Part shown: in pieces, positions 1-60,200 of the stretch
Numbering within the stretch: position 1 is the first letter of the stretch
Layout of the letters: each line of letters opens with the position of its first letter
Assembly (NCBI GenBank): GCA_027923505.1
Contig: BROI01000026.1
Location: forward strand, 360,662 to 424,661
Source of the DNA: Mayamaea pseudoterrestris
Lineage: Eukaryota > Bacillariophyta > Bacillariophyceae > Sellaphorales > Sellaphoraceae
Length of the DNA: 64,000 nt
Direction of reading: 5' to 3'
Notes under the pieces: generated by a model
What the model saw: the letters and a program-made list of their open reading frames with translations, nothing else
Told to the model about the DNA's origin: nothing
Databases searched by the model: none
Translations under genes and position numbers: made by a program

Positions 1-1256
1 AGGTGCCCAAAAAACACCAGAATGGTGCCAACATCATCATTCAGGCTGTGCTACAAGATGGTAGGCTTGGCTGGTGTCTCACGGGATGGCAATGTATTTG
101 GTGACAACTTGTCACCAGTCTCAGCCCGCAGATGCCGTGACATTCAAACGCCCCTACAGCAAGCCCTTTAGGTGCCCAAATTACACCAGAATGGTGCCAA
201 CATTATTATTCAGGCTGCGCTACAAGATGGTAGGCTTGGCTGGTGTCTCAGGGGATGGCAATGTATTTGGTGACAACTTGTCACCAGTCTCAGCCCGCAG
301 ATGCCGTGACATTCAAACGCCCCTACAGCAAGCCCTGTAGGTGCCCGAAATACACCAGAATGGTGCCAACATCCATATTCAAGCTGCGCTACAAGATGGT
401 AGGCTTGGCTGGTGTTTCAGGGAATGGCAATGTATTTGGTGACAACTTGTCACCAGTCTCAGCCCGCAGATGCCGTGACATTCAAACGCCCCTACAGCAA
501 GCCCTGTAGGTGCCCAAAAAACACCAGAATGGTGCCAACATCATCATTCAGGCTGTGCTACAAGATGGTAGGCTTGGCTGGTGTCTCACGGGATGGCAAT
601 GTATTTGGTGACAACTTGTCACCAGTCTCAGCCCGCAGATGCCGTGACATTCAAACGCCCCTACAGCGAGCCCTGTAGGTGCCCAAAATACACCAGAATG
701 GTGCCAACATCATTATTTAGGCTGCGCTACAAGATGGTAGGCTTGGCTGGTGTCTCAAGGGTTGGTAATGTATTTGGTGACAACTTGTCACCAGTCTCAG
801 CCCGCAGATGCCGTGACATTCAAACACCCCTACAGCAAGCCCTGTAGGTGCCCAAAATACACCAGAATGGTGCCAACATCATTATTCAGGCTGCGCTACA
901 AGATGGTAGGCTTGGCTGGTGTCTCAGGGGATGGCAATGTATTTGGTGACAACTTGTCACCAGTCTCAGCCCGCAGATGCCGTGACATTCAAACGCCCCT
1001 ACAGCAAGCCCTGTAGGTGCCCAAAATACACCAGAATGGTGCCAACATCATCATTCAGGCTGCGCTACAAGATGGTAGGCCTGGCTGGTGTCTCACAGAA
1101 TGGCAATGTATTTGGTGACAACTTGTCACCAGTCTCAGCCCGCTGATGCCATGACATTCAAACGCCCCTACAGCAAGCCCTGTAGGTGCCCAAAATACAA
1201 TAGAATGGTGCCAACATTATTATTCAGGCTGCGCTACAAGATGGTAGGCTTGGCTG

Positions 1257-1428
1257 GTGTCTTTGACTGTCACCCAGCGCAATTTGGTGACAACGTCACC
1301 CTCAGCTCACAAGATGGGGCTTGGCCTCAGCGCGAGACACTACAGCAAGCCCTGTAGGTGCCCTAATTACACAAGAATGGTACCAACATCATTATTCAGG
1401 CTGCGCTACAAGATGGTAGGCTTGGCTG
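1257..1428 (+). repeat. Chimeric 172-bp unit in the 169-bp array
   Basis: The flanks of this unit match the array, but the central ~80 bp (about 1261-1340) are unlike the consensus. The replaced core still holds a shortened palindrome, GGTGACAACGTCACC (1286-1300), at the expected place. It is either a very old unit or a patch from another subfamily. Confidence 0.8.
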
Positions 1429-4400
1429 GTGTCTCCAGGGATGGCAATGTATTTGGTGACAACTTGTCACCAGTCTCAGCCCGCAAATGCCATGACATTC
1501 AAACGCCCCTACAGCAAGCCCTGTAGGTGCCCAAAATACACCAGGAAGGTGACAACATCCTTATTCAGGCTGCGCTACAAGATGGTAGGCTTGGCGGATG
1601 CCTCAGGGGACGGCAATGTATTTGGTGACAACTTGTCACCAGTCTCAGCCCAAAGATGCCGTGACATTCAAATGCCCCTACAGCAAGCCCTGTAGGTGCC
1701 CAAAATACACCAGAATGGTGCCAACATCATTATTACGGCTGCGCTACAAGATGGCAGGCTTGGCTGGTGTCTCACATGATGGTAATGTATTTGGTGACAA
1801 ATTGTCACCAGTCTCAGCCCGCAGATGCCGTGACATTCAAACGCCCCTACAGCAAGCCCTATAGGTGCCCAAAATACACTGGAATGGTGCCAACATTATA
1901 ATTTAGGCTGCGCTACAAGATGGTAGGCTTGGCTGGTGTCTCAGGGGATGGCAATGTATTTGGTGACAACTTGTCCCCATTCTCAGTCCGCAGATGACAT
2001 GACATTCAAACGCCCCTACAGCAAGCCCTGTAGGTGCCCAAAATACACCAGAATGGTGCCAACATCATTATTCAGGCTGCGCTACAAGATGGTAGGCTTG
2101 GCTGGTGTCTCAGGGGATGGCAATGTAATTGGTGACAACTTGTCACCAGTCTCAGCCCGCAAATGCCATGACATTCAAACGCCCCTACAGCAAGCCCTGT
2201 AGGTGCCCAAAATACACCAGAATGGTGCCAGCATCATTATTCAGGCTGCGCTACAAGATGGTAGGCTTGGCTGGTGTCTCAGGGGATGGCAATGTATTTG
2301 GTGACAACTTGTCACCAGTCTCAGCCCGCAAATGCCAGGACATTCAAACGCCCCTACAGCAAGCCCTGTAGGTGCCCAAAATACACCAGAATGGTGCCAA
2401 CATCATTATTCAGGCTGCGCTACAAGATGGTAGGCTTGGCTGGTGTCTCAGGGGATGGCAAATGTATTTGGTGACAACTTGTCACCAATCTAAGCCCGCA
2501 GATGCCGTGACATTCAAACGCCCCTACAGCAAGCCCTGTAGGTGCCCAAAATACACCAGAATGGTGCCAACATCATTATTCAGGCTGCGCTACAAGATGG
2601 TAGGCTTGGCTGGTGTCTCAGGGGATGGCAATGTATTTGGTGACAACTTGTCACCAGTCTCAGCCCGCAGATGCCATGACATTCAAACGCCCCTACAGCA
2701 AGCCCTGTAGGTGCCCCAAACTACACCAGAATGGTGCCTTCACTATTGTTAAGGCTGCGCTACAAGATGGTAGGCTTGGCTGTTGTCTCATGGGGTGGCG
2801 AAAGTATTTGGTGACAACTTGTCACCAGTCTCAGCCCGCAGATGCCGTGACATTCAAACGCCCTACAGCAAGCCCTGTCACGTTACACCAGAATGGTGCC
2901 AGCATCATTATTCAGGCTGCGCTACAAGATGGTAGGCTTGGCTGGTGTCTCAGGGGATGGCAAAGTATTTGGTGACAACTTGTCACCAGTCTCAGCCCGC
3001 AGATGCCGTGACATTCAAACGCCCCTACAGCAAGCCCTGTAGGTGCCTAATTATACCAGAATGGTGCCAACATCATTATTCAGGCTGCGCTACAAATGAT
3101 AGGCTTGGCTGGTGTCTCAGGGGATGGCAATGTATTTGGTGACAACTTGTCACCAGTCTCAGCCCGCAGATGCCGTGACATTCAAACGCCCCTACAGCAA
3201 GCCCTGTAGGTGCCCAAAATACACCAGAATGGTGCCAACATCATTATTCAGGCTGCGCTACAAGATGGTAGGCTTGGCTGGTGTCTCAGGGGATGCAATG
3301 TATTTGGTGACAACTTGTCACCAGTCTCAGCCCGCGGATGCCGTGACATTCAAACGCTCCTACAGCAAGCCCTGTGGGGTGCCCAAAATACACCAGAATG
3401 GTGCCAACATCATTATTCAGGCTGCGCTACAAGATGGTAGGCTTGGCTGGTGTCTCAGGGGATGGCAATGTATTTGGTGACAACTTGTCACCAGTCTCAG
3501 CCCGCAGATGCCGTGACATTCAAACGCCCCTACAGCAAGCCCTGTAGGTCGCGAAATACACCAGAATGGTGCCAGCATCATTATTCAGGCTGCGCTACAA
3601 GATGGTAGGCTTGGCTGGTGTCTCAGGGGATGGCAATGTATTTGGTGACAACTTGTCACCAGTCTCAGCCCGCAGATGCCGTGACATTCAAACGCCCCTA
3701 CAGCAAGCCCTGTAGATGCCCAAAATACACCAGAATGGTGCCAACATCATTATTCAGGCTGCGCTACAAGATGGTAGGCTTGGCTGGTGTCTCAGGGGAT
3801 GGCAATGTTTTGGTGACAACTTGTCACCAGTCTCAGCCCGCAGATGCCGTGACATTCAAACGCCCCTACAGCAAGCCCTGTAGGTGCCCAAAATACACCA
3901 GAATGGTGCCAACATCATTATTCAGGCTGCGCTACAAGATGGTATGCTTGGCTGGTGTCTCAGGGGATGGCAATGTATTTGGTGACAACTTGTCACCAGT
4001 CTCAGCCCGCAGATGCCTTGACATTCAAACGCCCCTACAGCAAGCCCTGTAGGTGCCCAAAATACACCAGAATGGTGCCAACATCATTATTCAGGCTGCG
4101 CTACAAGATGGTAGGCTTGGCTGGTGTCTCAGTGGATGGCAATGTATTTGGTGACAACTTGTCACCAGTCTCAGCCCGCAGATGCCGTGACATTCAAACA
4201 CCCCTACAGCAAGCCCTGTAGGTGCCCAAAATACACCAGAATGGTGCCAACATTATTATTCAGGCTGCGCTACAAGATGGTAGGCTTGGCTGGTGTCTCA
4301 GGGGTTAGCAATGTATTAGGTGACAACTTGTCACCAGTCTCAGCCCGCAGATGCCGTGACATTCAAACACCCCTACAGCAAGCCCTGTAGGGTGCCCAAA

Positions 4401-7400
4401 ATACACCAGAAGGTGCCAACATCATTATTCAGGCTGCGCTACAAGATGGTAGGCCTGGCTGGTGTCTCAGGGATGGCAATGTATTTGGTGACAACTTGTA
4501 ACAGTCTCAGCCCGCAGATGCCGTGACATTCAAACGCCCCTACAGCAAGCCCTGTATGCGCCCAAAATACACCAGAATGGTGCCAACATCATTATTCCGG
4601 CTGCGCTACAAGATGGTAGGCTTGGCGGTGTCTCAGGGGGATGGCAATGTATTTGGTGACAACTTGTCACCAGTCTCAGCCCGCAGATGCCGTGACATTC
4701 AAACGCCCCTACAGCAAGCCCTGTAGGTCCAAAATACACCAGAATGGTGCCTCCATCATTATTCAGGCTGCGCTACAAGATGGTAGGCTTGGCTGGTGTC
4801 TCAGGGGATTGCAATGTATTTGGTGACAACTTGTCACCAGTCTCAGCCCGCAGATGCCGTGACATTCAAACGCCCCTACAGCAAGCCCTGTAGGTGCCCA
4901 AAATACACCAGAATGGTGCCAACATCATTATTCAGGCTGCGCTACAAGATGGTAGGCTTGGCTGGTGTCTCAGGGGATGGCAATGTATTTGGTGACAACT
5001 TGTCACCAGTCTCAGCCCGCAGATGCCGTGACATTCAAACGCCCCTACAGCAAGCCCTGTAGGTGCCCAAAATACACCAGAATGGTGCCAACATCATTAT
5101 TCAGGCTGCGCTACAAGATGGTAGGCTTGGCTGGTGTCTCAGTTGATGGCAATGTTATTGGTGACAACTTGTCACCAGTCTCAGCCCGCAGATGCCGTGA
5201 CATTCAAACGCCCCTACAGCAAGCCCTGTTGGTGCCCAAAATACACCAGAATGGTGCCAACATCATTATTCAGGCTGCGCTACAAGATGGTAGGCTTGGC
5301 TGGTGTCTCAGGGGATGGCAATGTATTTGGTGACAACTTGTCACCAGTCTCAGCCCGCAGATGCCGTGACATTCAAACGCCCCTACAGCAAGCCCTGTAG
5401 GTGCCCAAAATACACCAGAATGGTGCCAACATCATTATTCAGGCTGCGCTACAAGATGGTAGGCTTGGCTGGTGTCTCACGGGATGGCAATGTATTTGGT
5501 GACAACTTGTCACCAGTCTCAGCCCGCAGATGCCGTGACATTCAAACGCCCCTACAGCAAGCCCTGTAGGTGCCCAAAATACACCAGAATGGTGCCAACA
5601 TCATTATTCAGGCTGCGCTACAAGATGGTAGGCTTGGCTGGTGTCTCAGGGGATGGCAATGTATTTGGTGACAACTTGTCACCAGTCTCAGCCCGCAGAT
5701 GCCGTGACATTCAAACGCCCCTACAGCAAGCCCTGTAGGTGCCCAAAATACACCAGAATGGTGCCAACATCATTATTCAGGCTGCGCTACAAAATGGTAG
5801 GCTTGGCTGGTGTCTCAGGGTGTGGCAATGTATTTGGTGACAACTTGTCACCAGTCTCAGCCCGCAGATGCCGTGACATTCAAACGCCCTACAGCTAGCC
5901 CTGTAGGTGCCCACAGTACACCAGAATGGTGCCAACATCATATTAAGGCTGCGCTACAAGATGGTAGGCTTGGCTGGTGTCTCAGGGGATGGCAATGTAT
6001 TTGGTGACAACTTGTCACCAGTCTCAGCCCGCAGATGCCGTGACATTCAAACGCCCCTACAGCAAGCCCTGTAGGTGCCCAAAATACACCAGAATGGTGC
6101 CAACATCATCATTCAGGCTGCGCTACAAGATGGTAGGCTTGGCTGGTGTCTCAGTTGATGGCAATGTATTTGGTGACAACTTGTCACCAGTCTCAGCCCG
6201 CAGATGCCGTGACATTCAAACGCCCCTACAGCAAGCCCTGTAGGTGCCCAAAATACACCAGAATGGTGCCAACATCATTATTCAGGCTGCGCTACAAGAT
6301 GGTAGGCTTGGCTGGTGTCTCAGGGGATGGCAATGTATTTGGTGACAACTTGTCACCAGTCTCAGCCCCCAGATGCCGTGACATTCAAACGCCCCCTACA
6401 GCAAGCCCTGTAGGTGCCCAAAATACACCAGAATGGTGCCAACATCATTAATCAGGCTGCGCTACAAGATGGTAGGCTTGGCTGGTGTCTCAGGGGATGG
6501 CAATGTATTTGGTGACAACTTGTCACCAGTCTCAGCCGGCAGATGCCGTGACATTCAAACGCCCCTACAGCAAGCCCTGTAGGTGCCCAAAATACACCAG
6601 AATGGTGCCAACATCATCATTCAGGCTGCGCTACAAGATGGTAGGCTTGGCTGGTGTCTCAGTTGATGGCAATGTATTTGGTGACAACTCGTCACCAGTC
6701 TCAGCCCGCAGATGCCGTGACATTCAAATGCCCCTACAGCAAGCCCTGTAGGTGCCCAAAATACACCAGAATGGTGCCAACATCATTTTAGGCTGTTCTA
6801 AAAAATGGTAGGCTTGGCTGGTGTCTCAGGGGTTAGCAATGTATTAGGTGACAACTTGTCACCAGTCTCAGCCCGCAGATGCCGTGACATTCAAACGCCC
6901 CTACAGCAAGCCCTGTAGGTACCCAAAATACACCAGAATGGTGCCAACATCTCTATTCAGGCTGCGCTACAAAATGGTAGGCTTGGCTGGTGTCTCAGGG
7001 GATGGCAATGTATTTGGTGACAACTTGTCACCAGTCTCAGCCCGCAGATGCCGTGACATTCAAACGCCCCTACAGCAAGCCCTGTAGGTGCCCAAAATAC
7101 ACCAGAATGGTGCCAACATCATCATTCAGGCTGCGCTACAAGATGGTAGGCTTGGCTGGTGTCTCACGGGATGGCAATGTATTTGGTGACAACTTGTCAC
7201 CAGTCTCAGCCGGCAGATGCCGTGACATTCAAACGCCCCTACAGCAAGCCCTGTAGGTGCCCAAAATACACCAGAATGGTGCCAACATCATTATTCAGGC
7301 TGCGCTACAAGATGGTAGGCTTAGCAATGTCTCAGGGCCGCAATATACGGATGGTAATGTATTTGGTGACAACTTGTCACCAGTCTCAGCCCGCAGATGC

Positions 7401-9838
7401 CGTGACATTCAAACGCCCCTACAGCAAGCCCTGTAGGTGCCCAAAATACACCAGAATGGTGCCAACATCATTATTCAGGCTGCGCTACAAGATGGTAGGC
7501 TTGGCTGGTGTCTCAGGGGATGGCAATGTATTTGGTGACAACTTGTCACCAGTCTCAGCCCGCAGATGCGGTGACTTTCAAATGCCCCTACAGCAAGCCC
7601 TGTAGGTGCCCAAAAAACACTAGAATGGTGCCAACATCATCATTCAGGCTGCGCTACAAGATGGTAGGCTTGGCTGGTGTCTCAGGGGATGGCAATGTAT
7701 TTGGTGACAACTTGTCACCAGTCTCAGCCCGCAGATGCCGTGACATTCAAACGCCCCTACAGCAAGCCCTGTAGGTGCCCAAAATACACCAGAATGGTGC
7801 CAACATCATCATTCAGGCTGCGCTACAAGATGGTAGGCTTGGCTGGTGTCTCAGGGGATGGCAATGTATTTGGTGACAACTTGTCACCAGTCTCAGCCCG
7901 CAGATGCTGGACATTCAAACGCCCCTACAGCAAGCCCTGTAGGTGCCCAAAATACACCAGAATGGTGCCAACATCATTATTCAGGCTGCGCTACAAGATG
8001 GTAGGCTTGGCTGGTGTCTCAGGGGATGGCAATGTATTTGGTGACAACTTGTCACCAGTCTCAGCCCGCAGATGCCATGACATTCAAACGCTCCGCAAAG
8101 CCCTGTAGGTGCCCAAAATACACCAGAATGGTGCCAACATTATTATTCAGGCTGCGCTACAAGATGGTAGACTTGGCTGGTGTCTCAGGGATGGCAATGT
8201 ATTTGGTGACAACTTGTCACCAGTCTCAGCCCCGCAGATGCCGTGACATTCAAACTCAGCCCCTACAGCAAGCCCTGTAGGTGCCCAAAATACACCAGAA
8301 TGGTGCCAACATCATTATCTCAGGCTGCGCTACAAGATGGTAGGCTTGGCTGGTGTCTCAGGGGATGGCAATGTATTTGGTGACAACTTGTCACCAGTCT
8401 CAGCCCGCAGATGCCGTGACATTCAAACGCCCCTACAGCAAGCCCTGTAGGTGCCCAAAATACACCAGAATGGTGCCAACATCATTATTCAGGCTGCGCT
8501 ACAAGATGGTAGGCTTGGCTGGTGTCTCAGGGGATGGCAATGTATTTGGTGACAACTTGTCACCAGTCTCAGCCCACAGATGCCTTGACATTCAAACACC
8601 AGAATGGTGCCAAAATCATTATTCCAGCTTCGCTACAAGATGGTAGGCTTGGCTGGTGTCTCAGGGGATGGCAATGTATTTGGTGACAACTTGTCTCCAG
8701 TCTCAGCCGGCAGTGGCCATGATATTCAAAGGCCCCTACAGCAAGCCCTTTAGGTGCCCAAATAATACCAGAATGGTGCCAACATCATTATTCAGGCTGC
8801 GCTACAAGATGGTAGGCTTGGTTGGTGTCTCAGGGGATGGCAATGTATTTGGTGACAACTTGTCACCAGTCTCAGCCCGCAGATGCCGTGACATTCAAAC
8901 GCCCCTACAGCAAGCCCTGTAGGTGCCCAAAATACACCAGAATGGTGCCAACATCATTATTCAGGCTGCGCTACAAGATGGTAGGCTTGGCTGGTGTCTC
9001 AGGGATGGCAATGTATTTGGTGACAACTTGTCACCAGTCTCAGCCTGCAGATGCCGTGACATTAACAAACACCCTACAGCAAGCCCTGTAGGTGCCCAAA
9101 ATACACCAGAATGGTGCCAACATCATTATTCAGGCTGCGCTACAAGATGGTAGGCTTGGCTGGTGTCTCAGGGGATGGCAATGTATTTGGTGACAACTTG
9201 TCACCAGTCTCAGCCCGCAGATGCCGTGACATTCAAACGCCCCTACAGCAAGCCCTGTAGGTGCCCAAAATACACCAGAATGGTGCCAACATCATTATTC
9301 AGGCTGCGCTACAAGATGGTAGGCTTGGCTGGTGTCTCAGGGGATGGCAATGTATTTGGTGACAACTTGTCACCAGTCTCAGCCCGCAGATGCCGTGACA
9401 TTCAAACGCCCCTACAGCAAGCCCTGTAGGTGCCCAAAATACACCAGAATGGTGCCAACATCATTATTCAGGCTGCGCTACAAGATGGTAGGCTTGGCTG
9501 GTGTCTCAGGGGATGGCAATGTATTTGGTGACAACTTGTCACCAGTCTCAGCCCGCAGATGCCGTGACATTCAAACGCCCCTACAGCAAGCCCTGTAGGT
9601 GCCCAAAATACACCAGAATGGTGCCAACATCCTTATTCCGGCTGCGCTACAAGATGGTAGGCTTGGCTGGTGTCTCAGGGGATGGCAATGTATTTGGTGA
9701 CAACTTGTCACCAGTCTCAGCCCGCAGATGCCGTGACATTCAAACGCCCCTACAGCAAGCCCTGTAGGTGCCCAAAATACACCAGAATGGTGCCAACATC
9801 ATTATTCAGGCTGCGCTACAAGATGGTAGGCTTGGCTG

Positions 9839-10060
9839 GTGTCAGACATTGCGGATGACATCTTGTCCGAGTCTCAGCCCGACCAGCCCTCCAAGGCATG
9901 GCCAATGTATTTTGGGGACGGGTACTTGTCACCAGTCTCAGCCCCCAGATGCCGTGACATTCAAATGCCCCCTACAGCAAGCCCTGTAGGTGCCCAAAAT
10001 ACACCAGAATGGTGCCAACATCATTATTCAGGCTGCGCTACAAGATGGTAGGCTTGGTTG
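9839..10060 (+). repeat. Aberrant ~222-bp unit with ~53 bp extra sequence
   Basis: The distance between consensus landmarks here is about 391 bp over two units instead of 338. The extra segment (about 9842-9920) partly resembles a scrambled unit. The usual palindrome is lost on its left side, leaving only the right half around ACTTGTCACC. Confidence 0.75.
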
Positions 10061-11626
10061 GTGTCTCAGGGGATGGCAATGTATTTGGTGACAACTTGTC
10101 ACCAGTCTCAGCCCGCAGATGCCGTGACATTCAAACGCCCCTACAGCAAGCCCTGTAGGTGCCCAAAATACACCAGAATGGTGCCAACATCATTATTCCG
10201 GCTGCGCTACAAGATGGTAGGCTTGGCGGGTGTGTCAGGGGATGGCAATGTATTTGGTGACAACTTGTCACCAGTCTCAGCCCGCAGATGCCGTGACATT
10301 CAAACGCCCCTATACAGCAAGCCCTGTAGATGCCCAAAATACACCAGAATGGTGACAACATCCTTATTCCGGCTGCGCTACAAAATGGTAGGCTTGGCTG
10401 GTGTCTCAGGGGATGGCAATGTATTTGGTGACAACTTGTCACCAGTCTCAGCCCGCAGGTGCCTTGACATTCAAACACCCCTACATCAGGTCCTGTAGAT
10501 GCCCAAAATACACCAGAATGGTGACAACATCCTTATTCCGGCTGCGCTACAAAATGGTAGGCTTGGCTGGTGTCTCAGGGGATGGCAATGTATTTGGTGA
10601 CAACTTGTCACCAGTCTCAGCCCGCAGGTGCCTTGACATTCAAACACCCCTACATCAGGTCCTGTAGGTGCCCATATTACACCAGACTGGTGCCTACATC
10701 ATTATTTAGGATGCGCTACAAGATGGTAGGCTTGGTTGGTGTCTCAGGAGACTGCAATGTGATTGGTGACAACTTGTCACCAGTCTCAGCCCGCAGATGC
10801 GGTGACTTTCAAATGCCCCTACAGCAAGCCCTGTAGGTGCCCAAAATACACCAGAATGGTGCCATCATCATTAGTAAGGCTGCGCTACATGATGGTAAGC
10901 TTGGCTGGTATCTCAGGGGATGACAATGTATTTGGTGACAACTTGTCACCAGTCTCAGCCTGCAGATGCTGTGACATTCAAACGCCCCCACAGCAAGCCC
11001 TGTAGGTGCCCAAAATACACCAGAATGGTGCCAACATCATTATGCAGGCTACGCTACAAGATGGTAGGCTTGGCTGGTGTCTCAGGGGATGGCAATGTAT
11101 TTGGTGACAACTTGTCACCAGTCTCAGCCCACAGATGCTGAGACATTCAAGCGCCCCTACAGCAAGCCCTGTAGGTGCCCAAAATACACCAGAATGGTGC
11201 CAACATCAATATTCAGGCTGCGCTACAAGATGGTAGGCTTGGCTGGTGTCTCAGGGGATGGCAATGTATTTGGTGACAACTTGTCACCAGTCTCAGCCCG
11301 CAGATGCCGTGACATTCAAACGCCCCTACAGCAAGCCCTGTAGGTGCCCAAAATACACCAGAAGGGTGCCAACATCATTATTCAGGCTGCGCTACAAGAT
11401 GGTAGGCTTGGCTGGTGTCTCAGGGGATGGCAATGTATTTGGTGACAACTTGTCACCAGTCTCAGCCCGCAGATGCCATGACATTCAAACGCCCCTACAG
11501 CAAGCCCTGTAGATGCCCAAAATACACCGGAATGGTGCCAACATCATCATTTAGGTTGTGGTAAAAAATGATAGGCTTGGCTGGTGTCTCAGGGGATGGC
11601 AATGTATTTGGTGACAACTTGTCACC

Positions 11627-11701
11627 TGTTCCTGGTAAAACAGGAGTAGATACCCTGTATTCCGTGCGACTGTATGTCACACAGCTGCAGCGGCAGCACC
11701 C
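11627..11701. other. 75-bp unique spacer between two satellite families
   Basis: Sequence between the end of the 169-bp array and the first recognisable 353-bp unit. It matches neither family and shows no convincing reading frame. Confidence 0.6.
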
Positions 11702-14297
11702 AGGCAGGAAGCAGTGACTTGTTTGAATGATCAATGATGCACTGAAGCCTCCTTCAGGAAGTGGTGGGAGCCTGGTTGGTGTTTGGCAGTCAACTGGTGT
11801 GTTTGTGTTCAAACTGTCTCTGGTGCACTGGCCAGAGCCTGGCCAGAGCGTGGTGCCTGAATCCATTCTTGGGATGTAGAACTGATGCTTACATATATTT
11901 TTGAGCTTCTGCGCATGAATGGATTATTCCAAGTGCTTGTGGGTGCCAGAGCAGTGGCATATAGCAGAAACAATGGCTAGGCCCATCATTTTATAATTCA
12001 TAAAACATTGAAATGGAGACTATACCAATCCATGGCGCCCTTCCACAACCATGGCAGGACACCATTGGCTTGTTTGACTGATCATTGATCCACTGAAGCC
12101 TCCTTCAGCAAGTGGTGGAAGCCTGGTTGGTGTTTGGCAGTCAACTGGTGTGTTTGTTTTAATACAGTTTTTGGAGCATTGGCCAGAGCTTGGCCAGAGC
12201 TTGGTGCCTGAAATCAATTCTTGGGATGTAGAACAGTCACTAACATTTATATTTTGGGTTTCTGCGCAACAATGAATCATTCCAAGTGCTTGTGGGTGCC
12301 AGAGCAAGTGGCATATAGCAGGAACAATGGGTAGGCCCATCATTTTATGGTTCATAAAACAATGAAATGGAGACTATATCAATCCATGGCGCCCTTCCAC
12401 TACCAAAGCAGGACAGCAGTGGCTTGTTTAACTGATCAATGATGCACTGAAGCCTCCTTCAGCAAGTGGTGGGAGTCTGGTTGGTGTTTGGCAGTCACCT
12501 GGTGCGGTCGTTTTCACACAGTCTCTGGAGCATTGGCCAGAGCTTGGCCAGAGCTTGGTGCCTGAAATCCAGTATTGGCATGTAGAACAGTCACTAACAT
12601 TTATATTTCGGGTTTCTGCGCAAGAATGGATCATTCCAAGTGCTTGTGGGTGCCAGAGCAAGTGGCATATAGCAGGAACAATGGCTAGGCCCATCATTTT
12701 ATGGTTCATAAAACAATGAAATGGAGACTATACTGTGCCATGGCGCCCTTCCAGTAACATAGCAGGACAGCAGTGGCTTGTTTGATTGATTAATGATGCA
12801 CTGAAGCCTCCTTCCGCAAGTGGTGGAAGCCTGGTTGGTTTTTGGCAGTCAGCTGGTGTGGTCGTTTTCACACAGTCTCTGGAGCATTGGCCAGAGCTTG
12901 GCCAGAGCTTCGTGCCTGAAATCCATTGTTGGGATGTAGAACAGTCACTAACATTTATATTTTGGGTTTCTGCGCAAGAATGGATCATTCCAAGTGCTTG
13001 TGGGTGCCAGAGCAAGTGGCATATAGCAGGAACAATGAATAGGCCCATCATTTTATGGTTCATAAAACAATGAAATGGAGACTATATCAATCCATGGCGC
13101 CCTTCCACTACCATGGCAGGACAGCATTGGCGTGTTTGACTGATCAATGATGCACTGAAGCCTCCTTCAGCAAGTGGTGGGAGCCTGGTTGGTGTTTGGC
13201 AGTCACCTGGTGCGGTCGTTTTCACACAGTCTCTGGAGCATTGGCCAGAGCTTGGCTTGAGTGTGGTACCTGAAATCCAGTATTGGCATGTAGAACAGTC
13301 ACTTACATATATGTTTGGGTTTCTGCGCAAGAATGGATTATTCCAAGTGCTTGTGGGTGCCAGAGCAAGTGGCACATAGCAGGAACAATGGCTAGGCCCA
13401 TCATTTTATGGTTCATAAAACAATGAAATGGAGACTATATCAATCCATGGCGCCCTTCCACTACCATGGCAGGACAGCAGTGGCTTGTTTGACTGATCAA
13501 TGATGCACTGAAGCCTCCTTCCGCAAGTGGTGGAAGCCTGGTTGGTTTTTGGCAGTCAGCTGGTGTGGTCGTTTTCACACAGTCTCTGGAGCATTGGCCA
13601 GAGCTTGGCCAGAGCTTGGTGCCTGAAATCCATTCTTGGGATGTAGAACAGTCACTAACATTTATATTTCGGGTTCCTGCGCAAGAATGGATCATTCCAA
13701 GTGCTTGTGGGTGCCAGAGCAAGTGGCATATAGCAGGAACAATGGCTAGGCCCATCATTTTATGGTTCATAAAACAATGAAATGGAGACTATACTGTGCC
13801 ATGGCGCCCTTCCACAACCATGGCAGGACAGCATTGGCTTGTTTGACTGATCAATGATGCACTGAAGCCTCCTTCAGCAAGTGGTGGGAGCCTGGTTGGT
13901 GTTTGGCAGTCACCTGGTGCGGTCGTTTTCACACAGTCTCTGGAGCATTGGCCAGAGCTTGGCTTGAGTGTGGTACCTGAAATCCAGTATTGGCATGTAG
14001 AACAGTCACTTACATATATGTTTGGGTTTCTGCGCAAGAATGAATCATTCCAAGTGCTTGTGGGTGCCAGAGCAAGTGGCACATAGCAGGAACAATGGCT
14101 AGGCCCATCATTTTATGGTTCATAAAACAATGAAATGGAGACTATATCAATCCATGGCGCCCTTCCACTACCATGGCAGGACAGCAGTGGCTTGTTTGAC
14201 TGATCAATGATGCACTGAAGCCTCCTTCAGCAAGTGGTGAAAGCCTGGTTGGTGTTTGGCAGTCAGCTGGTGTAGTCGTTTTCACACAGTCTCTGGT
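11702..14297 (+). repeat. 353/354-bp satellite array, about seven units
   Basis: The landmark AAATGGAGACTAT recurs at about 12011, 12365, 12719, 13073, 13426, 13780 and 14133, so the period is 353-354 bp. Units contain the short direct repeat CCAGAGCTTGG twice and end near GGTTCATAAAACAATG. The family has no clear similarity to the 169-bp satellite, and its period is about twice a nucleosome repeat. The last unit is cut at about 14297, where it joins a 169-bp unit. Open frames of ~95-110 codons on the minus strand recur with the unit and are not genes. Confidence 0.95.
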
Positions 14298-14593
14298 GCC
14301 CAAAATACACCAGAATGGTGCCAACATCATTATTCAAGCAGCGTTACAAGATGGTAGGCTTGGCTGGTGTCTCAGGGGATGGCAATGTATTTGGTGACAA
14401 CTTGTCACCAGTCTCAGCCCGCAGATGCCATGACATTCAAACAGACTTACAGCAGGCCCTGTAGGTGCCCAAAATACACCAGAATGGTGCCAACATCATT
14501 GTTAAGGCTGCGCTACAAAACGGTAGGCTTGGCTGGTGTATCAGGGGCTGGCAATGTGACTGGTGAGATGTTCTCACCAGTCTCAGCCCGCAG
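14298..14593 (+). repeat. Two further 169-bp alpha-type units
   Basis: The sequence returns to the 169-bp family in the same orientation as the first array. The second copy is diverged and carries GGTGAGATGTTCTCACC (14562-14578), an intermediate between the alpha and beta palindromes. It ends at about 14593 against the ~180-bp family. Confidence 0.9.
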
Positions 14594-14850
14594 AGGTTAC
14601 TGTGTGGATGTTGCCCTCCCAAACAACTGATGCTACACATGAGCTGTGAATGATGGTTATGCACCAATCTCTCTGCATACATGTCTCCAAGCATAGCCAA
14701 AACAGAATTCATGGAGTAAGACTATTGGAAGTAGTCTTTGAAGGCCGTACACTGTAGTACCATGGAGGTGGTTACTGTTACTGTGTGGACCTCTGCTTTC
14801 CCAAACAGCTGATGCTACACACAGTCTACTGAGCAACCAACATCAACTAT
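14594..14850 (+). repeat. ~180-bp repeat family, left pair
   Basis: GATGCTACACA occurs at about 14630 and 14811, and GTTACTGTGTGGA is repeated ahead of each, giving a period near 181 bp. Related copies in the same orientation lie at 15980-16330, beyond the inverted beta array. Confidence 0.75.
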
Positions 14851-15979
14851 ATTTGTAGCACACGTGAAATAAGGATGTTAGCACCCATCTAGCTTGATTT
14901 GGGTGAACACATGGCTCTAGGTATGGGCATTTGTAAATTACGGCATCTACTGGCTGAGGCTGGTAAGAACTTCTCACCAATCACATTACAGTCTACCAAG
15001 GGACCGGCCAGGCAAAACTTCTTGTAGCGCACCTGAAATAAGGATGTTAGCACCATTCTAGCTTGATTTGGGCAAACAAGTGGCTCTAGGCATGGGCTTT
15101 TGAAAATAACCGCATCTGCTAGGTGAGACTGGCGACAAGTTGTCACCAATCACATTGCCATCTACTGAGCCACAAGCCAGTCAAATTTTCTTGTAGCGCA
15201 CTTGATATAGGGATGTTAGCACCATTTCAGGTTAATTTGGGCATACACATGGCTCTAGGTATGGGCATTTGAAATTTATGGCACCTGTTGGCTGAGACTG
15301 GTGAGAATTTCTCACCAGCCACATTGCAGTCAACTGAGGACCAGCCAGGCAAATTTTCTTGTAGCGCACCTAAAATAAGGATGTTAGCACCATTGTGGCT
15401 TGATTTGGGCACACACATGGCTCTATGTATGGGCGATTAAAAATTACGGCATCTGTTGGCTGAGACTGGTGACAAGTTGTCACCAATCACATTACAGTCT
15501 ACCAAGGGACCCTCCAGTCAAATTTGCTTGTAGCGCACCTGAAATAAGGATGTTAGCACCATTCTGGCTTGATTTGGTAATATACGTGGCTCTTGGTATG
15601 GGCCTTTGGAAATTACGGCATCTGCTGGCTGAGACTGGTGAGAACTTCTCACCAGTCACATTGCAGTCACCCGAGGGACCAGCCAGTCATATTTTCTTGT
15701 AGCGCACCTGAAATAAGGATGTTAGCACCATTCTGGCTTGATTTGGTAATACACGTGGCTCTTGGTATGGGCCTTTGGAAATTACGGCATCTGCTGGCTG
15801 AGACTGGTGAGAATTTCTCACCAGTCACATTGCAGTCAACCGAGGGACCAGCCAGTCATATTTTCTTGTAGTGCACCTAAAATAAGGAGGTTAGCACCAT
15901 TCTGGCTTGATTTGGTCATACACATGGCTCTAGGTATGGGCAATTGAAAATTACGGCATCTGCTGGCTGAGACTGGTGA
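14851..15979 (-). repeat. Inverted array of a diverged 169-bp subfamily (beta), 6-7 units
   Basis: The landmark TGGCTCTAGG or a close variant recurs at 14912, 15081, 15250, 15418, 15587, 15756 and 15925, a period of 168-169 bp. The reverse complement of a unit aligns with the alpha satellite through CCAGAATGGTGCTAACATC, GTGCGCTACAAGA, the palindrome, and CAGTCTCAGCC...GCAGATGCCGT. It is thus the same family in opposite orientation and strongly diverged. The array is cut inside a palindrome at 15975-15979. Confidence 0.9.
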
Positions 15980-16330
15980 TTAGTATGGAGCTGTTTACTG
16001 TTTGGATGTCTGCCCTACCATGCAAGTGATGCTACACATGAGCTGGGAATGATTGTTATGCACCAATCTTACCTATATGGGTCCTTAAGCACAGCCAGAG
16101 AAAAGTTCATGAAACAAGACTATTGGGGGTAGTCTTTGAAGGCCACACACTGTAGCATCATGGAGTTGGTTACTGTGTGGACCTCTGTCCTCCCAAACAA
16201 CTTATGCTACACGTGAGTCGGGAATGATTGTTATGCTGCAATCTCATCACATGTTTGTTCCTAAGCATAGCCAGATCAGGATTCATAGAACAAGACTATT
16301 CGGGCAGGTCTATTCTCATAACTTGAAGGA
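15980..16330 (+). repeat. ~180-bp repeat family, right pair
   Basis: Two copies with ATGCTACAC at about 16028 and 16205, plus shared GTAGTCTTTGAAGGCC and CATAGCCAGA segments. They are collinear with the left pair at 14594-14850, so the family appears to be interrupted by the beta array. Confidence 0.75.
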
Positions 16331-16441
16331 TTAGCATGACTGCCTGGTTTGTTGACGTTGATAACCTAACCAATACCTTGGTGGAAGGTGGCAATCCTTC
16401 AAAGGATGGGGATGGCCAAAGTTCTGTGTGCGCTGCTGGCC

Positions 16442-16465
16442 GCTGCTGCTGCTGCTGCTGCTGCT
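16442..16465 (+). repeat. (GCT)8 microsatellite
   Basis: Eight perfect GCT triplets in non-coding sequence between the satellites and the first gene. No gene is supported around it. Confidence 0.95.
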
Positions 16466-16565
16466 TTTGGATGACATACTGTTGCACAGAATACACCATA
16501 TTATCTACTCCTCTTTCACTGGAAGAAACGAGTTGACTGAATGCCCCCGCAGCATTCCATGTCTA

Positions 16566-16735
16566 CATCCAAATTACATATGAATGGTGCCAAAATCAAT
16601 ATTCAGGCTGTGCTACAAGATGGTATGCCTGGTGAGTGTCTCTGTTGTGGATGGCAATGTGACTGATGATAACTTCTCACCAGTCTCAGCCCGCAGATGC
16701 CTTGACATGCAAATGTCCATGCATCAACCTTGCTG
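16566..16735 (+). repeat. Solitary diverged 169-bp-type unit
   Basis: A single relic in alpha orientation. It keeps ATGAATGGTGCCAAAATCA, GCTGTGCTACAAGATGGTA and CACCAGTCTCAGCCCGCAGA. Its palindrome has decayed to GATGATAACTTCTCACC, with only the right half intact. The remaining sequence to the first gene at 17072 (about 335 bp) shows nothing else I can support. Confidence 0.85.
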
Positions 16736-17071
16736 TGCTAGCTGATGAGTTCAAAATATCACTGGTGTCCTTCTTCTGTCATTTTCACCACACTAAGCAC
16801 GTAAGCAGGCAAAGGCGCATGAATACTGTTGCCAAAAGAACACCAACATGGCAATAAGCACAGAGATGGGAAGTTTGTCAAGGAAATTCATTTTGAATCA
16901 TCAATGGGATGCAATTCAAAGCATGGATCTCTTAACAGTATCTACCAGAAGATGCAAGACATTATTCATACAGTCTGAAGTAAGTCAGCAGACCTACCGG
17001 TACTAACATTTCCGTTGCGCGCGCACGCCGTGCCTCATCGGCAAACCTCCGTCGCACAAACCACCTTCGAC

Positions 17072-23065: not shown

Positions 23066-23469
23066 CGCTACGAATTGCGTTTCGACTGGCTAAAATTCGG
23101 CAAAATTCGCCTTCAGGCGGCACGAAGCAACATAATGTTGCTTCGCTTGACGCTACCGAAAATCACTCATCCACGACCAACATGGCGGCCATGCCAGCCT
23201 TTACAGCTCTATACTACTCTATACTAGTTATCTATCAGTATTTTATCCATGTAAATGTAGCAGTTAGAGCATGGAGGATCCATTTTTGCCTCTTGTTTGT
23301 TCGTTCCATTGGAACTGCCACGCCGTCAGATAAAGATCCGGGTTCTGGTGCGATTTTTGTGGTTCGACGCGTAGACGCGCGTAGCGAAACGAGGCTGCAA
23401 AAAGTCGCTTCGTGCCGCCTGAAGGCAAATTTTGCCGAATTTTAGCCAGTCGAAACGCAATTCGTAGCG
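23066..23469. mobile_element. MITE-like element, 404 bp with 63-bp terminal inverted repeats
   Basis: The left arm (23066-23128) and right arm (23407-23469) are reverse complements with one mismatch that I can see (TTCGCC against TTTGCC, a CpG change). Both ends begin CGCTACGAATTGCG. Just inside the left arm is a 21-nt palindrome (23124-23144). No transposase is encoded. No clear target-site duplication is visible, so the exact ends could be a few bases off. It lies between the divergent starts of the E3 ligase and LeuRS genes. The small plus-strand frame inside it is not a convincing gene. Confidence 0.8.
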
Positions 23470-54564: not shown

Positions 54565-54935
54565 CATCATTTAATGGTTCATAAAACAATCAAATGGAGA
54601 CTAGACCCTGCCAGGGCACCATTCCATTATTATGGCCGGACAGCATTGGCATGATTGACTGATCAATGATGTACTGGAGCCTCCTTCATCAAGCGGTTAG
54701 AGCCTGCTTGGTTATTTGTCAGTCAACTGGTTTATTTTCACACATCCTCTGGGGTATGGCCAGAGCCTGGAGCTTCTAAAATTATGCCATGGTAGTGCAC
54801 ACTAGTCAATTGCTAGATCATTCCATTTATTGGTGGATAGCTGAGCAAGTAGCATAAAGCAGGAACAATGGCTTGGTCCACCATTTCATGGTCCAGAAAA
54901 CAATCAAATGTGCCATGGCGCCATTCCACTAGACC
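54565..54935 (+). repeat. Diverged copy of the 353-bp satellite, 40 kb from the main array
   Basis: It shares GGTTCATAAAACAATC, AAATGGAGACTA, GGACAGCATTGGC, TGACTGATCAATGATG and CAGGAACAATGGCT with the array at 11702-14297, in the same order and orientation, but with many changes and indels. It abuts the left arm of the 21-bp array, which begins at about 54936. Confidence 0.85.
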
Positions 54936-57239
54936 CTGTGAGTTTGGAACCAGCCCTGTGACTCTGGAACTGGTTGTTGCGACTCTAGAACCAATTGTTG
55001 AAAATTTGGAACCAGCCCAAGTAAATTTGGATTAGGATGTAGCAAATTGGAACCAGCCTCTGCGACTCTGGAACCAGTTGTTGCAAATTTGGATCTGGCT
55101 GTTGCAAATTTGAAACCAGCCACAGCAAATTCGGAACCCGTTGTTGTGAATTTGGAACCGGCCCCTGCACCTCTGGAACAGGTTGTTGCAAATTTGGAAC
55201 CAGCCCCTGCACCTCTGGAACCGGTTGTTGCAAATTTGGAACCAGCCCCTGCAACTCTGGAACCGGTTGTTGCGAATTTGGAACCAGCCCCTGCACCTCT
55301 GGATCTGGTTGTTGTGAATTTGGAACTGGTTGTTGCAAATTTGGAACCAGCCCTTGCAAATTTGGAACCAGCCCATGCACCTCTGGAACCGGTTGTTGCG
55401 AATTTGGAACTGGTTGTTGCGAATTTGGAACCAGCCCTTGCGAATTTGGAACCAGTTGTTGCAAATTTGGAACCAGCCCGCGCAACTCTAGAACCAGTTG
55501 TTGCAAATTTTGAAACAGCCCCTGCAACTCTGGAACCAGTTGTTGCAAATTTGGAACCAGCCCCTGCACCCCTGGAACCAGTTGTTTCGAATTTGGAACC
55601 AGCCCCTGCAAATTTGGAACCAGCCCATGCGAATTTGGAACCAGCCCCTGCACCTCTGGAACCGGTTGTTGCAAATTTGGAACTGGTTGTTGCAAATTAG
55701 GAACCAGCCCTTGCGAATTTGGAACTGGTTGTTGCGAATTTGGAACCAGCCCCTGCACCCCTGGAACCGGTTGTTGCGAAATTGGAACCAGCCCCTGTGA
55801 CTCTGGAACAGGTTGTTGCGAATCTGGAACCAGCCCCTGCACCTCTGGAACTGGTTATTGCGAATTTGGAACTGGTTGTTGCGAATTTGGAACCAGCCCC
55901 TGCACCTCTGGAACCGTGAACTGGAACTAGTTATTGCAAATTTGGAACCAGCCCCCACCGACCCTGCAAATTTGGAACCAGCCCCTGCCACTAAGTTTGC
56001 AAATTTGGAACCAGCCCCCTTGCTAATTGGGAACCAGTTGTTGCGAATTTGGAACCAGCCCCCCCCTGAACCACTTGTTGCGAATTTGGAACTGGCAAAA
56101 GGAACCAGCCTGCGACTCTGGAACTGGTTGTTGCAAATTTGGAACCAGCCCCAACGACTCTTGAACAGGTTGTTGCGAATCTGGAACCAGCCCCTGCACC
56201 TCTGGAACTGGTTATTTCGAATTTGGAACTGGTTGTCGTGATGAATTTGGAACCAGCCCCCGCGACTCTGGAACCGGCTGTTGCAAATTTGGAACTAGTC
56301 CCTGCGACTCTGGAACTGGTTGTTGCAAATTTGGAACAGATTGTTTTGAATTAGGAACCATCCCTTGCAAATTTGGAACCGGTTGTTGTGAATTTGGAAC
56401 TGGTTGTTGCGAATTTGGAACCAGCCCCTGCACCTCTGGAACTAGTTGTTGCAAATTTGGAACCAGCCCCTGCAAATTTGGAGCCAGCCCATGCGAATTT
56501 GGAACCAGCCCCTGCTAATTGGAAACCAGTTGTTGCGAATTTTGGACCCAGCCCCCGCGACTCTGGAACTGGTTGTTGCAAATTTGGAACCAGCCCCAAC
56601 GACTCTTGAACCGGTTGTTGCGAATTTGGAACCAGCCCCTGCACCCCTGGAACCGGTTGTTGCAATATTTGTACCAGCCCCTGCAAATTTGGAACCAGCC
56701 CCTGCACCTCTGGAACCAGTTGTTGCAAATTTGGAACTGGTTGTTGCAAATTAGGAACCAGCCCTTGCGACTCTGGAACTGGTTGTTGCGAATTTGGAAC
56801 CAGCCCCGGCACCCCTGGAACCGGTTGTTGCGAATTTGGATCTGGTTGTTGCGAATTTGGAACCAGCCCCTGCAAATTTGGAACCAGTTGTTGCAAATTT
56901 GGAACCAGCCCCTGCACCTCTGGAACTGGTTGTTGCGAATTTGGAACTGGTTGTTGCGAAATTGGAACCAGCCCCTGCGAATTTGGAACCAGTTGTGTGA
57001 ATTTGGAACCAGCCCCTGCAACTCTGGAACCGGTTGTTGCGAATTTGAAACTGGTTGATGCGAATTTGGACCCAGCCACTGCAAATTTGGAACCAGTTGT
57101 TGCAAATTTGGAACCAGCCCCTGCAACTCTGGAACCGGTCGTTGCGAATTTGGAACCAGCCCCTGCACCCCTGGAACCGGTTGTTGCAAATTTGGAACCA
57201 GCCCCTGCGAATTTGGAACCAGCCCCTGCAAATTTGGAA
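54936..57239 (+). repeat. 21-bp repeat array, left arm (heterogeneous)
   Basis: About 110 copies of a 21-bp unit of the type TTTGGAACCAGCCCCTGCAA, in irregular order and with many substitutions. It is the reverse complement of the right arm. Read on the plus strand, the best-preserved frame encodes heptads such as NLEPAPA and NLEPVVA, open for up to about 217 codons (55047-55700) before stops. No start, promoter or non-repeat domain marks a real gene. Confidence 0.92.
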
Positions 57240-60200
57240 GTTCCAAATTCACAAGGGCTGGTTCCAAATTCGCAACAATTGGTTCCAGAGGTGCAGGGGC
57301 TGGTTCCAAATTCGCAACAACCAGATCCAAATTCGCAACAACCGGTTCCAGAGGTGCAGGGGCTGGTTCCAAATTCGCAACAACTGGTTCCAAATTCGCA
57401 GGGGCTGGTGCCAAATTCGCAACAACCAGATCCAAATTCACAACAACCGGTTCCAGAGGTGCAGGGGCTGGTTCCAAATTCGCAACAACTGGTTCCAAAT
57501 TCGCAGGGGCTGGTTCCAAATTTGTTCCAAATTTGCAACAACCAGATCCAAATTCGCAACAACCGGTTCCAGAGGTGCAGGGGCTGGTTCCAAATTCGCA
57601 ACAACTGGTTCCAAATTCGCAGGGGCTGGTTCCAAATTCGCAACAACCAGATCCAAATTCGCAACAACCGGTTCCAGAGGTGCAGGGGCTGGTTCCAAAT
57701 TTGCAACAACTGGTTCCAAATTCGCAGGGGCTGGTTCCAAATTCGCAACAACCAGATCCAAATTCGCAACAACCGGTTCCAGAGGTGCAGGGGCTGGTTC
57801 CAAATTCGCAACAACTGGTTCCAAATTCGCAGGGGCTGGTTCCAAATTTGCAACAACCAGATCCAAATTCGCAACAACCGGTTCCAGAGGTGCAGGGGCT
57901 GGTTCCAAATTCGCAGGGGCTGGTTCCAAATTCGCAACAACCAGATCCAAATTCGCAACAACCGGTTCCAGAGGTGCAGGGGCTGGTTCCAAATTCGCAA
58001 CAACTGGTTCCAAATTCGCAGGGGCTGGTTCCAAATTCGCAACAACCAGATCCAAATTCGCAACAACCGGTTCCAGAGGTGCAGGGGCTGGTTCCAAATT
58101 CGCAACAACTGGTTCCAAATTCGCAGGGGCTGGTTCCAAATTCGCAACAACCGGTTCCAGAGGTGCAGGGGCTGGTTCCAAATTCGCAACAACTGGTTCC
58201 AAATTCGCAGGGGCTGGTTCCAAATTCGCAACAACCAGATCCAAATTCGCAACAACCGGTTCCAGAGGTGCAGGGGCTGGTTCCAAATTCGCAACAACTG
58301 GTTCCAAATTCGCAGGGGCTGGTTCCAAATTCGCAACAACCAGATCCAAATTCGCAACAACCGGTTCCAGAGGTGCAGGGGCTGGTTCCAAATTCGCAAC
58401 AACTGGTTCCAAATTCGCAGGGGCTGGTTCCAAATTCGCAACAACCAGATCCAAATTCGCAACAACCGGTTCCAGAGGTGCAGGGGCTGGTTCCAAATTC
58501 GCAACAACTGGTTCCAAATTCGCAGGGGCTGGTTCCAAATTCGCAACAACCAGATCCAAATTCGCAACAACCGGTTCCAGAGGTGCAGGGGCTGGTTCCA
58601 AATTCGCAACAACTGGTTCCAAATTCGCAGGGGCTGGTTCCAAATTCGCAACAACCAGATCCAAATTCGCAACAACCGGTTCCAGAGGTGCAGGGGCTGG
58701 TTCCAAATTCGCAACAACTGGTTCCAAATTCGCAGGGGCTGGTTCCAAATTCGCAACAACCAGATCCAAATTCGCAACAACCGGTTCCAGAGGTGCAGGG
58801 GCTGGTTCCAAATTCGCAACAACTGGTTCCAAATTCGCAGGGGCTGGTTCCAAATTCGCAACAACCAGATCCAAATTCGCAACAACCGGTTCCAGAGGTG
58901 CAGGGGCTGGTTCCAAATTCGCAACAACTGGTTCCAAATTCGCAGGGGCTGGTTCCAAATTCGCAACAACCAGATCCAAATTCGCAACAACCGGTTCCAG
59001 AGGTGCAGGGGCTGGTTCCAAATTCGCAACAACTGGTTCCAAATTCGCAGGGGCTGGTTCCAAATTCGCAACAACCAGATCCAAATTCGCAACAACCGGT
59101 TCCAGAGGTGCAGGGGCTGGTTCCAAATTCGCAACAACTGGTTCCAAATTCGCAGGGGCTGGTTCCAAATTAGCTCGATCCAGGTCCAAATTCGCAACAA
59201 CCGGTTCCAGAGGTGCAGGGGCTGGTTCCAAATTCGCAACAACTGGTTCCAAATTCGCAGGGGCTGGTTCCAAATTCGCAACAACCAGATCCAAATTCGC
59301 AACAACCGGTTCCAGAGGTGCAGGGGCTGGTTCCAAATTCGCAACAACTGGTTCCAAATTCGCAGGGGCTGGTTCCAAATTCGCAACAACCAGATCCAAA
59401 TTCGCAACAACCGGTTCCAGAGGTGCAGGGGCTGGTTCCAAATTCGCAACAACTGGTTCCAAATTCGCAGGGGCTGGTTCCAAATTCGCAACAACCAGAT
59501 CCAAATTCGCAACAACCGGTTCCAGAGGTGCAGGGGCTGGTTCCAAATTCGCAACAACTGGTTCCAAATTCGCAGGGGCTGGTTCCAAATTCGCAACAAC
59601 CAGATCCAAATTCGCAACAACCGGTTCCAGAGGTGCAGGGGCTGGTTCCAAATTCGCAACAACTGGTTCCAAATTCGCAGGGGCTGGTTCCAAATTCGCA
59701 ACAACCAGATCCAAATTCGCAACAACCGGTTCCAGAGGTGCAGGGGCTGGTTCCAAATTCGCAACAACTGGTTCCAAATTCGCAGGGGCTGGTTCCAAAT
59801 TCGCAACAACCAGATCCAAATTCGCAACAACCGGTTCCAGAGGTGCAGGGGCTGGTTCCAAATTTGCAACAACTGGTTCCAAATTCGCAGGGGCTGGTTC
59901 CAAATTCGCAACAACCAGATCCAAATTCGCAACAACCGGTTCCAGAGGTGCAGGGGCTGGTTCCAAATTCGCAACAACTGGTTCCAAATTCGCAGGGGCT
60001 GGTTCCAAATTCGCAACAACCAGATCCAAATTCGCAACAACCGGTTCCAGAGGTGCAGGGGCTGGTTCCAAATTCGCAACAACTGGTTCCAAATTCGCAG
60101 GGGCTGGTTCCAAATTCGCAACAACCAGATCCAAATTCGCAACAACCGGTTCCAGAGGTGCAGGGGCTGGTTCCAAATTCGCAACAACTGGTTCCAAATT

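Follow-up and report, generated by a model that had tools for sequence, protein, structure and literature searches.

The right end of contig C26 of the Mayamaea pseudoterrestris genome (30.6 Mb in 41 contigs) carries a 169-bp satellite, each unit of which typically contains a 17-bp inverted repeat with 8-bp arms (9 bp with the next pair) around one base. We analyzed this contig end as a single stretch of 64,000 nt (BROI01000026.1, positions 360,662 to 424,661; hereafter the window) together with related loci elsewhere in the genome. An earlier note on this DNA had proposed that the two arms of the palindrome change together. We found that they covary at one of nine pairs, where the usual C/G has been replaced by G/C as part of a linked haplotype. 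We consider it about an even chance (probability roughly 0.5) that this paired change arose by copying of one arm onto the other through template switching during DNA synthesis, and that it spread afterwards. The template-switch nature of the event, its direction and its spread are what we infer from sequence patterns; none of them was observed directly.

In the window, the satellite forms a head-to-tail array at positions 1-11626 (68.7 copies, 91% matches by Tandem Repeats Finder, TRF), whose units are referred to as alpha, and a diverged, inverted array at 14853-15979 (6.7 copies), referred to as beta, in agreement with the earlier description. The sample comprised the window and 76 loci, and the window and the first 73 loci were merged into 44 segments. 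A unit model applied with nhmmer yielded 655 units, and in 575 the site was ungapped. In the numbering of this model the palindrome occupies columns 77-93 with its centre at column 85, and pair i joins columns 85-i and 85+i; pair 3 is thus columns 82 and 88.

At pair 3, the 575 units show 73 one-sided and 40 double changes, and 37 of the doubles are complementary, while the eight other pairs together show 206 one-sided changes and two doubles, neither complementary. As some loci had been chosen for pair-3 variants, covariation was recounted on 276 distinct units taken from the window and from loci found by similarity rather than chosen by palindrome. Pair 3 then showed 50 one-sided and 20 double changes, 18 of them complementary (permutation p ≤ 0.0005), and the eight other pairs 154 one-sided changes and two doubles, again with no complementary one (p from 0.21 to 1). 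The covariation expected from the earlier note was present at pair 3 but not at the other eight. As a general rule, the statement that the arms change together fails; it is true for one pair and essentially for one haplotype, and recent arm mutations are mostly one-sided and uncompensated.

Counts over the whole genome point the same way: the paired G/C form GGTGAGAANTTCTCACC occurs at 60 places and a one-sided C-to-G or G-to-C change at pair 3 at 24 places; the other doubles at this pair are T/A (2), A/T (1) and T/T (1). The A/T case lies in a strongly diverged unit (C9:919790-919975, locus L076), so that all four Watson-Crick pairs are seen at pair 3. Double changes with the remaining arm positions intact, counted genome-wide for pairs 1, 2, 4, 7 and 8 with pairs 5 and 6 left out, numbered 5, 0, 0, 0 and 3, one of them complementary. 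The sole complementary double found outside pair 3 is at pair 8 of an alpha unit (AGTGACAAGTTGTCACT; C17:139580-139770, locus L075).

The evidence for copying comes from the units in which the G/C form can be set against a close C/G relative. Outside columns 70-100, the unit at C2:1880064 diverges by 2.4% from its closest C/G unit over 124 compared columns; inside them, it has exactly six changes, 73G, 74A, 75C, 82G, 85G and 88C. The same six letters distinguish L074/957-1101 (3.5% outside), and C5:1109462 carries them with two more (7.8% outside). In all three units, 73G, 74A, 75C and 82G are the complements of 97C, 96T, 95G and 88C on the other arm, and one-sided 88C units occur in alpha arrays. 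Five of the six changed letters are what copying of a right arm with 88C is expected to give, which favours copying. The beta G/C units C26:376222, C1:2210469, C1:2210301 and C27:102252 are set apart from their nearest C/G unit by 75C, 82G, 85G and 88C plus two or three further letters, at 9-13% divergence outside; three further beta G/C units have centre A, and C26:375549 lacks 75C. The paired haplotype often includes 75C, with the pairing lengthened from 9 to 12 bp, and a changed centre base. Perfect 12-bp arms were found in 17 of the 34 G/C units compared with 2 of 444 C/G units, and the left flank TGACT in 23 of 34 compared with 7 of 462.

The event would have started from a unit with the old 17-bp inverted repeat around one base, an alpha unit that had gained 88C on its right arm (G88C). 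During DNA synthesis, the now imperfect inverted repeat would fold back, and the right arm with G88C would become the template for the left arm. Copying columns 85-97 back over 73-85 would give the other five letters (73G, 74A, 75C, 82G and 85G) at once. This one step would make 82G, extend the pairing outward through 73G, 74A and 75C, and could invert the centre from C to G. The haplotype would then have reached the alpha, beta and third backgrounds through amplification and exchange or through repeated events. In the third subfamily, whose G/C units mostly have centre C, the switch may have stopped before the spacer, or another event may have been responsible.

Template switching itself is an already known process. 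It has been described in yeast between the arms of inverted repeats, with homogenisation of the arms and inversion of the spacer (PMC8604942), and compensatory changes in RNA stems have been proposed to arise from it (PMC8794818). As in a quasipalindrome template switch, one arm of the clearest satellite units has become the reverse complement of its partner, the substitutions are clustered, the pairing reaches further out and the centre is inverted. Unlike the known process, the satellite case is read from sequence patterns, its spacer is a single base, and an inverted centre is missing from more than half of the G/C units.

Of 27 distinct G/C units, 20 carry 75C (r2 0.41) and 9 carry 85G (r2 0.17); the linkage of the G/C state outside columns 73-88 is at most r2 0.13. 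This linkage to the flank speaks for one origin or a few, their number being uncertain, and the independent changes suggested earlier gave way to a linked haplotype. It occurs on three backgrounds, alpha, beta and the third subfamily. A G/C site with an alpha-like left flank was considered as an independent case, and it is probably not one, as it has further variants in common with G/C neighbours in the same array. Exceptional homoplasy of the haplotype was rejected (ratio 0.78 against a median of 0.68 over 47 minor alleles, 12 of which were at least as high), and general short-tract shuffling behind its scatter was unsupported (mean linkage 0.157 at distances of 0-4 bp, and near 0.09-0.12 at every distance beyond).

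Several observations weigh against arm-to-arm copying. Template switching should hit every pair, yet the eight other pairs, with their 154 one-sided changes, yielded no complementary double among the 276 units, so the process would have to be rare or pair 3 favoured. For most G/C units the nearest C/G relative is distant (9-14% outside the site, 32% in one case), and clean comparisons are therefore few. L074/450-618 (2.9% outside) has 82G, 85G and 88C without 73G-75C, hence no extension. The centre of the 34 G/C units is mixed (C in 18, G in 13, A in 3), so that in the units with C or A the spacer was not simply inverted or several events took place. Conversion by beta units might also account for the G/C patch on alpha units. 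Full extension is missing from the T/A sites at pair 3 (three in the sample) and from one A/T site there, all of which need other explanations, two mutations or selection. The linkage of 82G with 88C (r2 0.55) ranks only third of 580 allele pairs at 3-9 bp, and the top two are unrelated to the palindrome; local linkage alone can therefore reach such strength. A tree built without columns 71-100 scatters the G/C units (20 changes over 27 tips; shuffled mean 26.4), so that the origins cannot be counted; the unit sample was also enriched for G/C loci. Finally, the low variation of the arms (2.0% compared with 8.0% for the rest of alpha-like units) is unexplained by copying alone, which suggests some constraint on the arms besides copying, possibly by a dimeric binding protein.

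The palindrome is abundant. The perfect site GGTGACAANTTGTCACC occurs 65 times in the window and was absent from 100 shuffles, in line with its reported presence in most units. Across the genome, 7,725 sites are perfect and 1,006 have one mismatch, a total of 8,731 with at most one. Of the 80 annotated window units, 75 have an ungapped site, which is symmetric in 68; in the remaining five the site is gapped, shifted or incomplete. Asymmetric sites amplify as well, as GGTGATAACTTGTCACC, GGTGACAACAAGTCACC and AGTGACAACTTGTCACC are present in 19, 12 and 8 copies, respectively, among the 575 units. The centre was said to vary freely, and this was not the case in the C/G form (C in 449 of 462 units); it is mixed only in the G/C form. 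The satellite features of the window, and the array that interrupts them, are as follows.

1-11626, + strand: alpha satellite array, 169-bp unit, about 68.7 copies, most units with the palindrome GGTGACAACTTGTCACC (TRF, pattern matches, nhmmer)
1207-1378, + strand: diverged or chimeric unit, palindrome shortened to 15 bp, GGTGACAACGTCACC, with 6-bp arms
11703-14296, + strand: different 354-bp tandem array, 7.3 copies, interrupting the satellite block (TRF)
14317-14596, + strand: 1.7 alpha units, the second with the G/C form and extended arms on an alpha background
14558-14582: G/C site of that second alpha unit, GACTGGTGAGATGTTCTCACCAGTC, innermost pair broken
14822-15982, - strand: beta (diverged) satellite array, inverted relative to alpha (TRF, nhmmer)
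14962-14978, + strand: beta site GGTAAGAACTTCTCACC, asymmetric, A/C at pair 5
15131-15147, + strand: beta site GGCGACAAGTTGTCACC, asymmetric, C/A at pair 6
15300-15316, + strand: beta site, G/C form GGTGAGAATTTCTCACC
15468-15484, + strand: beta site, C/G form GGTGACAAGTTGTCACC, pairing not extended because its flank is AATC
15637-15653, + strand: beta site, G/C form GGTGAGAACTTCTCACC, 12-bp arms (GACT...AGTC)
15806-15822, + strand: beta site, G/C form GGTGAGAATTTCTCACC, 12-bp arms
16586-16729, + strand: lone degenerate satellite unit, site GATGATAACTTCTCACC, asymmetric (nhmmer)

The earlier readings of the inverted array were accurate for the G/C form at 15300, 15637 and 15806 and for GGTGACAAGTTGTCACC at 15468. 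The letters given for 15131 were also correct, but this site is asymmetric, and so is the unlisted site at 14962. Two of the six complete sites of the array thus lack symmetry: matched arm changes are found at its G/C sites, but symmetry is not kept throughout. The chimeric unit does retain its site, though in a form shortened by two T, and the model places this unit at 1207-1378.

Another palindromic satellite was found in 7 of the 43 non-window segments. It is built of half-units of about 174 bp in a 348-bp dimer and had no match in the window at E 1e-4; its flanks have no detectable homology to alpha.

L009 1-1600 (C1:2208876-2210475) and related loci on C1, C2, C3, C18 and C27: second satellite, 27-29-bp palindromes around one base

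The two half-unit types share about 64% identity over their length (105 of 163 aligned positions) and carry the palindromes AGCAGATCCAACAA-g-TTGTTGGATCTGCT and GCACATTCAACCA-t-TGGTTGAATGTGC. These differ at three pairs, and all three differences are compensated: A/T to C/G at pair 2, C/G to T/A at pair 7 and G/C to C/G at pair 10. One-sided forms, C/T at pair 2 in 4 of 30 units and C/C at pair 10 in 2 of 30, may be intermediates. In 23 distinct rows, 89.0% of cells pair compared with 82.6% in shuffles, and 25 cells are changed on both sides compared with 12.1, a value reached in 0 of 500 shuffles; pairs with two-sided change (3 versus 3.1) and further pair types (8 versus 10.1) are not above the shuffles. 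Since relatedness inflates these counts, they represent one split into two subtypes and not 25 events. Symmetry is kept over the long term in two satellites, by copying, constraint or both.

A scan of 228 kb, a sample partly chosen for such sites, gave 39 perfect palindromes whose arms were 10 bp or longer and whose centres had 0-3 bases; 38 of them belonged to the two satellites, and 37 of these 38 have a one-base centre. The sole one outside them is CGAAGCAACAT-a-ATGTTGCTTCG at window position 23123. A palindrome common to all satellites of the clusters was considered and rejected, as among the other tandem repeats in the loci, arms longer than 7 bp were found only in the 348-bp satellite.

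In both satellites, variation in the arms is lower than in the remainder of the unit, by a factor of 1.4-4: 8.3% versus 11.6% in beta-like units and 4.5-7.2% versus about 14% in the second satellite, besides the alpha-like values given above. It is possible, though we think it doubtful, that these arms are held by selection on symmetry, each site being bound by a putative homodimeric protein with two half-sites and a one-base spacer. Such a protein would read GGTGA and AA base by base and tolerate several bases at pair 3 if the halves match, and two satellites with such sites would be its targets. The reduced arm variation, the concentration of long-armed palindromes in two satellites and the three compensated pairs between the second-satellite subtypes are consistent with this idea; the possible one-sided intermediates would fit stepwise change. 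Against it, the asymmetric sites named above amplify, and a tolerant position would not require a match in both halves. In alpha-like units, moreover, the ten most conserved 17-bp windows begin at columns 78-87, which puts the conserved block off the dyad and extends it about 10 bp beyond the right arm. The 17-bp window of the palindrome itself ranks 11th of 153 in alpha-like and only 31st of 153 in beta-like units. The dimeric protein suggested earlier is thus possible in view of the quieter arms, and the off-centre block fits it less well. Some constraint on the arms is plausible, and a protein of this kind would be the simplest candidate for it. No satellite-binding protein was noticed in open literature listings, in which no search was aimed at one.

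An extension of this idea, which we regard as unlikely, is that the half-sites of the two satellites co-evolve under a putative homodimeric satellite-binding protein of changing specificity, in a CENP-B-like role with a symmetric site. The palindromes would then be of one design, with 9-14-bp arms and a one-base centre, once per nucleosome-length unit or half-unit, and the protein perhaps a heterochromatin or segregation factor. The CENP-B box is a 17-bp protein site in satellite DNA. The palindrome resembles it in being about 17 bp long, present once per unit and less variable than its surroundings, but it is unrelated in sequence and symmetric, and its binding protein is putative.

Descent without copying or function would be another account. 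The founder unit would have had its palindrome through chance or from some other element, the two forms being old subfamily haplotypes. The linkage of G/C to the flanking 75C, the tolerated asymmetric sites and the eight pairs without covariation fit this account, as do the comparably strong short haplotypes elsewhere in the unit that have nothing to do with the palindrome (109C-117C, r2 0.89; 37A-43A, r2 0.65). It does not account, however, for the complementarity of the changed letters in the clearest units to the other arm, for the compensation of all three differing pairs in the second satellite, or for the lower variation of the arms, and we judge it improbable.

Selection for pairing itself, with the site working as a DNA cruciform or hairpin in, say, centromeric or heterochromatic DNA, is very improbable. 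Perfect pairing is kept across sequence change in two satellites of nucleosome-length period, and dyad symmetries and non-B DNA are discussed for the centromeres of some species; however, the clusters are scattered, with several on some contigs, most one-mismatch sites are uncompensated, and several satellites in these clusters lack any palindrome whose arms reach 7 bp. The RNA hairpin of the earlier note, whether in a transcribed small RNA or as a satellite ribozyme, is scarcely credible. An RNA loop needs more than a one-base centre unless the inner pairs open. Two + strand units fold no more stably than shuffles (z -0.54) and window positions 1-16500 gave no Rfam match at gathering scores, although arm pairing is compatible with an RNA stem and the T/G found at pair 3 in 44 of 575 units would be a U-G wobble. 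The palindrome was also rejected as a start or end point of arrays, 18 of 72 array ends lying in columns 64-105 compared with 17.9 expected, in a test where many ends pile up at the edges of the model itself.

The element is satellite DNA, as it consists of tandem, homogeneous units without a long reading frame; no open reading frame of at least 200 aa is present in window positions 1-17000. We estimate from site counts that it makes up about 1.5 Mb of the genome. It resembles nucleosome-length centromeric satellites with dyad symmetry in its 169-bp unit, tandem arrays, subfamilies and short inverted repeat per unit, but its arrays lie on at least 32 of 41 contigs, and it has one short palindrome with 8-9-bp arms. 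Centromeric satellites are expected as one main array per chromosome; some contigs here bear several separate clusters, although contigs are not chromosomes. A role of the palindromic satellite as a centromere marker was unsupported by cluster positions, though it is still conceivable.

Other repeats were seen around these arrays. Window positions 14597-14820 and 15985-16313 are pieces of another tandem repeat, with an approximately 176-bp period, that lies beside satellite arrays at several other loci. Positions 54565-54910, which adjoin a 21/42-bp array, match parts of the 354-bp repeat unit from 11703-14296 at about 80% identity. From 54977 to 62519, near the contig end, runs a long array of 21/42/105-bp units that is open in several frames; its orientation flips near 57240, the left units being the reverse complement of the right ones. 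On contig C11, similarity scores recur at an offset of 5,248 bp between 139950-144062 and 145198-149310 (L070 and L069), which suggests a recent duplication within a satellite array.

The earlier proposal that selection or a copying mechanism acts on symmetry can be kept in part: the letters of the clearest units favour copying, but the ground for refutation named in the note largely applies, as the arms change independently at eight of nine pairs and the linked G/C haplotype speaks for one or few origins. A combined literature search on satellite DNA, palindromes, compensatory change, conservation and protein binding gave no papers. Compensatory changes are commonly regarded as the strongest proof that a stem is functional or a site symmetric. 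Here, in many near-identical copies, arm changes are mostly one-sided, and one haplotype alters both arms as copying would. Such satellites are a good natural test bed for distinguishing selection on symmetry from template-switch mutation. If one protein does read both palindromic satellites, it would be a satellite-binding factor in this lineage.

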